A stretch of 64,000 nucleotides of DNA from Turneriella parva DSM 21527 (GTDB lineage: Bacteria; Spirochaetota; Leptospiria; Turneriellales; Turneriellaceae), in contig NC_018020.1 of the NCBI RefSeq assembly GCF_000266885.1, positions 4,216,001 to 4,280,000 on the forward strand, in the 5' to 3' direction. Below are positions 779 through 53,214 of this stretch, piece after piece (within the stretch, counting starts at the first letter, position 1; each line of letters opens with the position of its first letter). The translations under genes were made by a program, and so were the position numbers. The notes beneath the pieces were generated by a model that was not told the DNA's origin, did no database searches, and saw only the letters and a program-made list of their open reading frames with translations.

Positions 779-1073
779 ATAAGCATAAATATGTTTGTGT
801 GTTTATATGTAAAGCAATAAATGTGAATTTTTCGCATTTGTTGAAAATGTTCGTTGAGGTGGATTGAGGGGCGTTATGCGCCCGGGCGCTATTCGGGCCA
901 GCTACGAATTTCCATAGCTATGACCGCCATCTTGAGAGAGCTATGGAATTTCGCAGCTATGGTTTGTACGAAAAGGGGGCCAGAAGCGCGCAGCGTACAG
1001 CCGGCGCCTGCTATGAAGATACTAATGATGACGAAGAATTCAATCTTGCCAAGCTGCTGCGCAGCCCCAACCG
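779..1073. other. intergenic region upstream of vapBC
   Basis: This 295-base gap lies between the antitoxin start and the alpha-E gene end. The first 70 bases are markedly AT-rich. On the minus strand TTTACA, 17 bases, then ATTTAT could be a weak promoter for vapBC. The rest holds a 57-base inverted repeat, listed separately. A 78-codon open frame on the plus strand has no start signal, no recognisable domain and runs through the inverted repeat, so I do not call a gene. Confidence 0.5.
901..957. repeat. inverted pair of an 18-bp palindromic element
   Basis: The left arm GCTACGAATTTCCATAGCT (901-919) and the right arm AGCTATGGAATTTCGCAGC (939-957) are complementary at 17 of 19 positions, around a 19-base loop. 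Each arm is itself an imperfect palindrome around AATT. The same element with one difference lies upstream of pstS at 41570-41588. Confidence 0.75.
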
Positions 1074-16844: not shown

Positions 16845-17897
16845 ATGACCACAGACGATTTACGCATTCAGGGCCTGAAGCCTTTAATACCCCCTGCAAT
16901 CCTCATTGAAGAAATACCCCTGCCCTATGCCGGGCAGACCTTTGTGAACACGGCGCGCGAGCATGTGAATAAGATCGTGAAGGGTGAAGACGACCGCCTG
17001 TTGGTGGTTGTTGGCCCGTGCTCGATACACGATACCAAAGCGGCAATCGAATATGCCGAAAAGCTGCAGAAGTTGCGCGCGCAGCACGCGGCCGACCTCG
17101 AGGTGGTGATGCGCGTCTATTTCGAAAAGCCGCGCACCCGCTCGGGCTGGAAAGGGCTTATCAACGACCCGCACATCGACGGTTCGTTTAGCATTAACGA
17201 AGGCTTGAGAATCGCGCGTAAACTTCTGGTCGACCTGACCGCGATGGGTCTGCCCATCGGCTGCGAGTTTCTCGACACCATCAGCCCGCAGTTCATCGCC
17301 GACTGCGTCAGCTGGGGCGCAATCGGTGCGCGCACGACCGAAAGCCAGGTGCATCGCGAACTCGCTTCAGGCCTTTCGATGGCGGTCGGCTTCAAGAACG
17401 GCACCGACGGCAATACAAAAATTGCGATCGACGCAATTCACGCGGCGCAGGCCGCGCACCATTTCTTGTCGATTACCAAACAGGGAGTGGCGGCCATCGT
17501 GCACACTAAAGGTAACCCCGTAGGGCATCTGATTCTGCGCGGCTCGACGCAGGGCCCAAATTACGAAGCGGCGTTCATCAAAAAAACAGCGCAAGAGCTG
17601 AAAGCAGCCGAACTGCGCGAAGGTCTCATCGTCGACTGCAGCCATGGCAATTCTTCGAAAGACCATAACCGCCAGCCGATCGTGGCGCAGAATATCGCTG
17701 AGCAGCTTGCAGCCGGTGAAAGGGCCATCGTGGGTGTGATGCTCGAAAGCCATTTAAAAGCCGGCAACCAGAAAGAGGCTCCGCTGGCGAAGCTCGAATA
17801 TGGCAAGTCGATCACCGATGCCTGCATCGCGTTTGACGACACCGAAAAAGTTCTGCATGCGCTCGCAGCCGGCGTCAGATCGCGCAGAGGTAAATAA
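16845..17897 (+). CDS. aroG: 3-deoxy-7-phosphoheptulonate synthase, class I
   Basis: DAHP synthase joins phosphoenolpyruvate and erythrose 4-phosphate, the first step of the shikimate pathway. Class I marks are clear: DDLRIQGLKPLIPP at the N-terminus as in the E. coli enzymes, VVVGPCSIHD, MRVYFEKPRTRSGWKG, GARTTESQVHRELASGLS, VGFKNGTDG, GNPVGHLILRGS and VDCSHGNSSKDHNRQ. The start ATG at 16845 is preferred over a TTG two codons earlier because it gives the usual N-terminus. Length is 350 residues, standard for the family. Which aromatic amino acid inhibits it cannot be read with confidence. It stands alone, followed by a structured repeat. Confidence 0.95.
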   Translation: MTTDDLRIQGLKPLIPPAILIEEIPLPYAGQTFVNTAREHVNKIVKGEDDRLLVVVGPCSIHDTKAAIEYAEKLQKLRAQHAADLEVVMRVYFEKPRTRSGWKGLINDPHIDGSFSINEGLRIARKLLVDLTAMGLPIGCEFLDTISPQFIADCVSWGAIGARTTESQVHRELASGLSMAVGFKNGTDGNTKIAIDAIHAAQAAHHFLSITKQGVAAIVHTKGNPVGHLILRGSTQGPNYEAAFIKKTAQELKAAELREGLIVDCSHGNSSKDHNRQPIVAQNIAEQLAAGERAIVGVMLESHLKAGNQKEAPLAKLEYGKSITDACIAFDDTEKVLHALAAGVRSRRGK

Positions 17898-18058
17898 GGA
17901 GCTGCGCGGCAGGTCGCAAAACGACGAATTTCAGGAAAAGTTCCGCGATTTTCGAAGCGAAAATCGCTCTATGAACGGGCTGAGGCCCGCTTTTCCCGAA
18001 TTTCGTCGTTTTGCTATTGCTCTGAAATTTCGAATATGGCGACCCGCCGCGCAGCTCC
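17898..18058. repeat. structured repeat element, copy A (about 160 bp)
   Basis: The ends are inverted: GGAGCTGCGCGGCAGGTCGC at 17898-17917 pairs at 19 of 20 positions with 18039-18058. A second pair of arms (GCAAAACGACGAATTTC against GAATTTCGTCGTTTTGC) pairs at 16 of 17. Inside are two hairpins, GCGATTTTCG/CGAAAATCGC and CGGGC/GCCCG. A second copy lies in the opposite orientation at about 53055-53214, with a nearly identical core. Confidence 0.85.
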
Positions 18059-18103
18059 TAAATAATCGATTGCGGGGCTGCCCCGCGATCAAAGGTAATC
18101 CCC

Positions 18104-20257
18104 ATGCAAGTGACTGAGATTACCCACGGCGTCGTTGTCGGCCGCACTGACAAGCGCACCGTGCTGTTCGGCTGCCCGCCAGAAGTGATCAAGCACCTGA
18201 TGGTGAAGGGTATCGGTAGCCCCGATGTCATCGTTCTGCCAGATACGCCGTACCGCTTTAACGTGCTGCAAAATTGTACGGAGTTTCCTCTTTACTATTT
18301 CTTGTTCGTTGAGCGAAACTTTATGCAGGGCAAGAAACTCACGATCGTGGGCACGGCGCTGCATCTCAAGGCGAACCGAAAGCTTCTGCGCCTGACGCTT
18401 TTAGGCCCCACACGCAAAGAGTACGATGCGCTCGGGCAAAGCCCCTGGTTCGACGAACTCTACCGCGAGGCGCGGGCAATCTCGGTCAAAAACAGCGAAG
18501 GTAGAGAATTCTCCATCGACGATTTTGTGGATTTCGTACCTTTTCAAAACGGCGTCGCCCGCCTCGCCGACGGCACTGAAATTTTTCACAACGCCCGCGA
18601 CCAGTACAGGTTGAACGGTGAAAATATCGATATTCGCTTCGACACACCACAAGACCCGCCATACGACCTGCGCAGCGATTTCACGACGACGCTGCCTTCG
18701 CAGTTTGGCGTCACGGTTCTGGGGGGTGCCTCGGGTTTTATCGCCGATAAACCGTGCTCGGGCCTCGTGCTGCACTACAACTCAGAGCACATGCTGATCG
18801 ACTGCGTTCCCTACCTCGAACAGGCGCTGAATGCCCGGGGCATCTCGAGTACTGAAATCCGTTCGCTTTTTCTGACGCATATTCATGACGACCATTGCAA
18901 CATTTTTCCGCTGCTGAGGCTCTCAAACAAGGTGCGCCTCATTGCCACCAAAGAAATTTTCTGGATGGCGATGATGAAACTTTCGTTGCAGACGATGCTG
19001 CCGATCGATGATCTCAAACAGATGTTCCAGTTTGTCGAGGTGAAACCGTACGAAACGACTGAATTTTTCGGCCTGTCGATTGAGCCTCATTATACCGTGC
19101 ATTCGATACCGACGATCGGCGCTACGTTTAGAATGAAAGAAGGGAACAGCTCGCGCAGCATCGTCTTTATCGGCGACAACAAATCGTTCACAGACATCGA
19201 GCAGATGGTTGCGCAGGGTATCGTGCGGCACGAGAAATTCGATGTGCTGAAACAACTTTATACAGAACCGCATGACATTCTGTTCGCCGACGGCGGCATG
19301 GGAATTCTGCACGGAAACCCGCGCGATGCGCTGAAGTCGCAGGCTGACCGCATTGTCTTCATGCACCTTGAGAAGCTGCCGCCAGAATTCGACGCAACGT
19401 TCTCGCACGCAACTCATGGCAAACGCTATAACATCATTCAGGGCAGCTACGACTCGTACATGATTCGCACGATGCACATCTTGAGCGATTCTTTTCACAA
19501 TATTTCGCACGACTGGGCGACTGCGCTCATGAACAACTTCAGAATCGTCACGTTCAATTCGGGTGATATTATCTTTAAACAGAACGAAGCCTCAAAGGGG
19601 CTGATCTATATAATACTCACCGGCAGCTGCAGCGTCATGTACCATGACGGCAAGACACTGAGCGAGAAGGCTCGCAAAGAAGCCGGAGATTTCGTCGGCG
19701 AAATGGCGGTGCTCGACGACAACAAGGTGCGCTCGGCATCGATTGTTGCGGCGACCCCGGTGACGCTTTGCGCGATCGATGAAAAGCTGTTTCACGAATT
19801 TCTGATCGCAGAGAACCGCGTCGACGAAATGCGCCACCTGTGGAAAGTGCGGTCAGAGATCGAGCGGTTCTGGCCGTTTGCCCAGTTCGCCGATAACGTC
19901 AAAGACCGTATCGCGCGGGCGGCTGTGAGGCTGCGTGTCGCTTCGGGTGACACGCTCGTCGAACAGGGTAAAAGCGACGGCGAGTTCTTTATTATTCTTT
20001 CAGGCGAATACAGCGTGCGCCACAACGGCATCGAAATTAAGATTCTGCGCGCAGGCGATATGTTCGGTGAATACGGCTCGCTCGATTCAACTGCGCGCAA
20101 TGCCACCGTGACGGCGCTTGCAAACGGCGAAGTTATTGAAGTTGCGCGCGGTGAAATTCGCAAGATAATCGAATCGGCGCCGATATTTAATTTCAGCATG
20201 CGCGAGCTCATGATGCGGCGCTCGCGCGAACTGAAGCTGCTCGACCGTGGGGGCTAA
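18104..20257 (+). CDS. metallo-beta-lactamase-fold protein with two cyclic-nucleotide-binding domains
   Basis: This 717-residue protein joins three parts. Residues 1-210 form a domain I do not recognise. The metallo-beta-lactamase core follows, with the metal motif THIHDDHC near residues 258-265, a GDNKSF strand and DGGMGILHG. Residues about 475-590 and 600-710 are two cNMP-binding domains, each with a phosphate-binding cassette: GDFVGEMAVLDDNKVRSAS and GDMFGEYGSLDSTARNATV, both keeping the key glutamate and arginine. It is therefore a cAMP- or cGMP-sensing hydrolase-like enzyme of unknown substrate. It ends tail to tail with an adenylate cyclase gene, the two stop codons overlapping in CTAA. 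The start ATG is preceded by a weak AAAGG. Confidence 0.85.
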   Translation: MQVTEITHGVVVGRTDKRTVLFGCPPEVIKHLMVKGIGSPDVIVLPDTPYRFNVLQNCTEFPLYYFLFVERNFMQGKKLTIVGTALHLKANRKLLRLTLLGPTRKEYDALGQSPWFDELYREARAISVKNSEGREFSIDDFVDFVPFQNGVARLADGTEIFHNARDQYRLNGENIDIRFDTPQDPPYDLRSDFTTTLPSQFGVTVLGGASGFIADKPCSGLVLHYNSEHMLIDCVPYLEQALNARGISSTEIRSLFLTHIHDDHCNIFPLLRLSNKVRLIATKEIFWMAMMKLSLQTMLPIDDLKQMFQFVEVKPYETTEFFGLSIEPHYTVHSIPTIGATFRMKEGNSSRSIVFIGDNKSFTDIEQMVAQGIVRHEKFDVLKQLYTEPHDILFADGGMGILHGNPRDALKSQADRIVFMHLEKLPPEFDATFSHATHGKRYNIIQGSYDSYMIRTMHILSDSFHNISHDWATALMNNFRIVTFNSGDIIFKQNEASKGLIYIILTGSCSVMYHDGKTLSEKARKEAGDFVGEMAVLDDNKVRSASIVAATPVTLCAIDEKLFHEFLIAENRVDEMRHLWKVRSEIERFWPFAQFADNVKDRIARAAVRLRVASGDTLVEQGKSDGEFFIILSGEYSVRHNGIEIKILRAGDMFGEYGSLDSTARNATVTALANGEVIEVARGEIRKIIESAPIFNFSMRELMMRRSRELKLLDRGG

Positions 20258-53054: not shown

Positions 53055-53214
53055 GGGGCGGCACTGAAGGTCGCAAAATTACAAACAATAGTCGAGCTGC
53101 GAAATGACGAAATTCCGGAAAAGCGGGCGTCAGCCCGTTCATAGAGCGATTTTCTTCTGAAAATCGCGGAACTTTTCCGGAATTTGGTCATGGCGCGTCA
53201 TTCTGTGCCGCCCG
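53055..53214. repeat. structured repeat element, copy B (about 160 bp)
   Basis: This copy is inverted relative to copy A. Terminal arms GGGCGGCAC (53056-53064) and GTGCCGCCC (53205-53213) pair perfectly. The core from about 53105 to 53190 is nearly identical to copy A: GGAAAAGCGGGC, CAGCCCGTTCATAGAGCGAT and GAAAATCGCGGAACTTTTCC. Its inner hairpins are GCGGGC/GCCCG and GCGATTTTC/GAAAATCGC. Confidence 0.85.

Follow-up and report, generated by a model that had tools for sequence, protein, structure and literature searches.

Copies A and B of Turneriella parva DSM 21527 are very probably two members of a family of non-autonomous transposable elements (MITEs) that is dispersed through Turneriella. 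Apart from a parent IS, the features by which a MITE is recognized were found: a length of 161 bp (below 500 bp), terminal inverted repeats of 20 bp, no transposase gene, multiple dispersed copies, a target duplication of fixed length (4 bp) and, for copy A, an empty site in a relative, the congener G003. The source genome, that of a free-living spirochaete (PMC3746428), comprises 4,409,302 bp, and the window (the whole stretch of 64,000 nucleotides that was analysed) lies within its contig of 4,384,015 bp. A term search of the main text of the T. parva genome paper finds no mention of transposons (PMC3746428).

A dispersed family in Turneriella

A preliminary description of this DNA reported two elements in opposite orientation, and the covariance model places them at exactly the same positions, 17898-18058 (+) and 53055-53214 (-); these are its only significant matches within the window. 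Their parts are listed in Table 1. A and B are 89% identical over their central 92-93 bp, and their pairing arms measure 38 nt (outer) and 25 nt (inner) in A, and 30 nt and 25 nt in B. Copy A follows immediately on the stop codon that ends a DAHP synthase gene, with a gene of metallo-beta-lactamase fold and cyclic-nucleotide-binding type 46 bp downstream, and copy B is flanked by a glycosyltransferase-2 gene and a GBBH-like gene. Each is oriented in the same way as its neighbouring genes. The earlier statement that the elements have no coding capacity is right in substance, apart from a chance reading frame (17800-18117, +) that crosses A. A further palindromic repeat-like stretch (CCATAGCTATG ... 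AGCTATGGAATTTCGCAGCTATGG) is present at positions 900-970 of the window, and a similar sequence occurs upstream of the G003 copy in L072.

Table 1. Positions of copies A and B, of the parts of copy A and of a third remnant in the window
Feature	Position	Strand	Remark
Copy A, 161 bp	17898..18058	+	Full-length match to ~20 other genomic copies; model score 183.8 bits
Copy B, 160 bp, older and more diverged	53055..53214	-	Orthologous copy in congener G003, contig C142
Left target duplication TAAATAA	17891..17897	.	Includes the stop codon (TAA) of the DAHP synthase gene upstream
Right target duplication TAAATAA	18059..18065	.	G003 has one unbroken AAATAA here
Left terminal inverted repeat (outer stem, 5' strand)	17898..17917	+	Consensus 20-mer identical in G002 elements
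Right terminal inverted repeat (outer stem, 3' strand)	18039..18058	+	
Inner stem, 5' strand	17918..17940	+	Changes on both sides in 13/23 pairs
Inner stem, 3' strand	17990..18012	+	Same helix 2 (13/23 pairs)
Hairpin 1, GCGATTTTC...GAAAATCGC	17945..17967	+	Helix 3, 95.9% of cells paired
Conserved junction TCTATGAA between hairpins 1 and 2	17968..17975	+	Mean column identity 94%, 30 copies
Hairpin 2, CGGGC, 4-nt loop, GCCCG	17976..17989	+	Stem 97%, loop 54% conserved
Asymmetric single strand between inner and outer stem	18013..18038	+	Fastest-evolving long part
Third-copy remnant, right end only	~1028..1068	+	Complete copy at the orthologous place in G003, contig C273

The preliminary description counted two copies and would have given up its reading had no others existed. 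A whole-genome search with copy A and the covariance model brought the number to about 21 near-full-length copies across the T. parva genome; most of these show 80-98% identity, and a few are more divergent, although the covariance model recovers them over their whole length. Both A and B are real, but they are not typical partners, B being among the most diverged copies (76% identity to the consensus). The genome also harbors internally deleted forms of 62 bp, fragments and a small tandem array of the element. At 3851400-3851730 (L020, L025, L026), a partial copy stands in tandem with a period of ~116 bp.

Among 40 relatives scanned with the covariance model, only three congeneric draft genomes gave matches, G001 (7), G003 (7) and G002 (16). 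The consensus terminal inverted repeat is the 20-mer GGGGCTGCGCGGCAGGTCGC. Many elements of G002 carry identical 20-bp ends around an interior of another type (type II; most of these elements measure 170 or 192 bp), two elements of 213 bp carry a third interior type, and forms of 27-29 bp are scarcely more than the ends. Near-identical solo hairpins of 29 bp (GGGGCTGCGCGGCAGGTCGCGACAGCCCC) adjoin T-runs at three places in G002 (L142, L144, L145); they represent the element end sequence, the second end being absent. An exact 20-mer scan of ~85,000 species returned repeated matches only in a Leptospiraceae MAG (JAEUSA01) that matches G002, and isolated single matches elsewhere. Viral contigs, plasmids and phages gave no match to the element, and an Rfam search of the window retrieved only a tRNA above the gathering threshold, the element belonging to no Rfam family.

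Target duplications, empty sites and candidate transposases

Target duplications at the ends, which the preliminary description proposed to look for, are present, and a length of 4 bp stands out over 47 aligned insertions. An exact 4-bp direct repeat flanks 9 of the 47 (0.43 expected), and the identity of the 4-bp flanks is 0.49 against an expected 0.26, a value reached by none of 2000 shuffles. The signal is strongest in the youngest elements (7 of 16 in G002), and an excess is also seen on average when T. parva is considered separately. Old copies mostly lack a recognizable duplication, as expected from decay. The duplication at copy A is of 7 bp instead of 4.

The empty site of A was found in G003, where the target is single (GGCAAATAATCG, against GGTAAATAA-[161 bp]-TAAATAATCG in T. 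parva). Likewise, G003 lacks a counterpart of the T. parva copy at 1825964 in the orthologous position, and one G003 insertion could not be found in T. parva. G003 shares copy B with T. parva at the orthologous locus, another repeat interrupting it there. In G002 the distance between the flanks of the B site is shorter by ~180 bp, as though no element stood between them. The empty site of A, the old shared copy B and the species-specific copies together indicate that the family is mobile, that it is older than the split of these species and that it has moved again since.

A DDE-type transposase acting in trans would recognize the terminal repeats and insert the element, mostly into intergenic sites, by a cut with a 4-bp stagger; it is to such a staggered cut that the precise 4-bp target duplication points. 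The same duplication speaks against a REPIN, that is, two inverted REP hairpins mobilized by a RAYT tyrosine transposase, in spite of a short palindrome (CTGC-GCG-GCAG) in the terminal repeat, the solo 29-bp hairpins of G002 and the presence of Y1/RAYT-like genes in T. parva. REPs adjoin every RAYT examined in the REPIN paper (PMC3116915), but no Y1 gene neighbourhood here has the terminal repeat within 5 mismatches, and we consider a REPIN origin very unlikely. The initial reading as a REP/MITE-like element is therefore retained for its MITE half, on account of the terminal repeats, the 4-bp duplication and the empty site, and dropped for its REP half, the RAYT-like genes having no adjacent repeats.

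The search for an autonomous element carrying these ends was negative in T. parva and G002. When whole genomes were scanned for the terminal repeats (allowing 3/20 or 2/15 mismatches) and the unpaired ends inspected, only short or truncated elements came to light, and the inverted repeats around the sole DDE_Tnp_1 gene of T. parva have no such ends. The parent transposase may have been lost, or may be missing from the draft genomes. The insert that interrupts B in G003 was considered as a helper IS and rejected, as it belongs to a second, 140-bp MITE-like family for which no target duplication was detected. Members of this second family (L251-L258, L273-L291) are mostly 140 bp long, have the ends GGGGTTGTCTAAAAAGTC and are strongly folded. 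They give ~13 matches in T. parva (at 451800, 2449775, 4364775 and others) and are also present in G003 (including a copy at C142:4246), G005, G006 and G016. Several of them sit in the middle of a palindrome (AATCC/GGATT, CATC/GATG, the slash marking the place).

Fold, covariation and constraint on the core

The structure model, based on 30 aligned copies from three genomes, consists of a 20-bp outer stem, a 23-bp inner stem, hairpin 1, hairpin 2 and an asymmetric strand. The suggestion that pairing is conserved while sequence drifts is borne out: 91% of the cells are paired, 29 of the 57 base pairs show changes on both sides (none of 500 shuffles was as high), and the covariance test proposed for it shows that base changes preserve the pairing. 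Compensatory cells number 76, against 14.9 in shuffles and 11-23 in slid controls, and RNAalifold reports 25 compensated pairs on the same alignment. The interiors of A and B have folding z values of about -7.3 and -7.2 relative to dinucleotide shuffles, none of 200 being as good. The left arm can also be paired with the asymmetric strand, but this alternative is conserved only in part (62% of cells); the strand may be what is left of a former second partner of that arm.

The type I model matches type II elements over their full length with 47-73 bits in the best cases, of which ~43 are due to the terminal repeats alone (an internally deleted element of 86 bp scores 42.8). The correct strand of type II outscores the other by up to ~38 bits, and one type II interior, folded alone, adopts the same layout (z -9.6). 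In a joint alignment of both types, changes on both sides occur in 38 of 57 pairs, a figure that leans towards the model since the alignment was fitted to it.

Structure that is kept while sequence varies is also typical of the attC recombination sites of integrons. At 3.47-3.66 Mb of T. parva contig C1 (L244-L248), at least 10 same-strand copies starting ACAACAAAATTTACCCGCTGCGC...GGTCTGCGCGGCA look like the attC sites of a large chromosomal integron cassette array. These attC-like sites differ in sequence from the element and stand as same-strand arrays, whereas the element is dispersed, occurs in both orientations and is associated with a 4-bp duplication; the chance that it is itself an attC-like site appears negligible.

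Covariation might also arise by mutation and not by selection, if template switching during replication copies one arm of a long palindrome onto the other, a known mechanism for quasi-palindromes. The terminal arms do co-vary within single copies (GGAATTGC/GCAATTCC in L239 and GGGCCAGCGC/GCGCTGGCCC in L021). However, this process leaves unexplained the invariant unpaired junctions, the slow core within the youngest clade, and the asymmetry and two-hairpin layout preserved in type II, and as a general account it seems unlikely.

The core is constrained. Over the 30 copies, conservation reaches 93-97% in the junctions and hairpin stems, as compared to 54% in the hairpin-2 loop and 64% in the asymmetric strand. 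In the youngest T. parva clade, private changes are rarer in the core (0.0105 per site) than in the asymmetric strand (0.063; p about 3e-5), and the terminal repeats take 0.043; compensation among these changes (0 observed, ~0.1 expected) involves too few cases to tell. Between B and its G003 ortholog, none of 32 core bases has changed against 11 of 56 elsewhere (p 0.006), and the hairpin-2 loop has changed at all four of its bases. These sequence comparisons suggest that the core does something in place, beyond serving transposition. The unchanged core could also reflect gene conversion between copies, but its being unchanged at the fixed B locus makes us lean towards some role in situ.

Non-standard pairs are more often A-C than G-T (31 vs 15 distinct events, p 0.026; 6 vs 3 in type II), a weak hint that the folded strand is the complement of the one drawn. 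An excess of this kind would be expected from selection on one of the two strands, acting as RNA or as single-stranded DNA. Together with the constraint on the core, in recent private changes and at B since the split from G003, and with several copies that begin 1-4 bp from a stop codon, it could be read as the mark of a dispersed regulatory RNA or 3'-UTR element of the host, whose fold would be under selection for a host function, its mobility being incidental. We regard this as improbable: the strand indicated by the A-C excess runs against the direction of transcription at A and B, orientation relative to adjacent genes is mixed across the family, with many copies between divergent genes, no Rfam family is matched, and copy positions differ between congeners.

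For the mobile element that we favor, the interior fold would be kept as an aid to its persistence, a step less certain than the action of a transposase. The fold may act in single-stranded DNA during transposition. Alternatively it may act in read-through transcripts, where, by analogy with NEMIS and ERIC, an RNA hairpin would be processed or would insulate the insertion. We tentatively propose, as a possibility that falls short of an even chance, that the interior is a functional three-way-junction nucleic acid (a single-stranded DNA substrate of transposition, or RNA) under selection of its own, the interior sequence changing from species to species between constant 20-bp ends without loss of the fold. 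Such a MITE would be defined by structure and not by sequence.

Comparison with known systems

ERIC/IRU and NEMIS/Correia are similar in form, being palindromic, intergenic mobile repeats of ~105-160 bp with long hairpins, whose read-through RNA can affect mRNA (PMC2229807). The likeness is one of form; searches of Rfam, plasmids and phages gave no match that would show a sequence relation. The Turneriella element has a three-way junction in place of one long hairpin, and a 4-bp target duplication. It shares with REPINs (PMC3116915) two inverted short palindromic ends and a variable interior, but has no RAYT association and does have a target duplication. MITEAba12 (PMC6382973) is likewise a small non-autonomous element with a defined target duplication; unlike the Turneriella element, it has an identified parent IS and duplicates 9 bp.

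With the prokaryotic MITEs (PMC10969869) the element shares a length below 500 bp, terminal inverted repeats within the range of 4-30 bp, an intergenic location, direct repeats that are present in younger copies and fade with age, a stable stem-loop and internally deleted variants. It differs from them in that it is GC-rich where they are AT-rich, that the search for a co-resident IS with matching ends was negative, and that compensatory change has conserved its interior fold in two interiors of unlike sequence. No earlier account of repeat elements for Turneriella or Leptospira was found in the open-access papers searched. With its unusually well conserved interior fold, the element forms a new family within a known kind. 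The usual description of bacterial MITEs is that of IS remnants whose fold is a by-product of their inverted ends, whereas in the Turneriella family compensatory change has maintained the interior fold, junction residues included, in several species and in two interiors of unlike sequence. Whether and why the folds of MITEs are selected thus becomes directly testable in a cultivable spirochaete.
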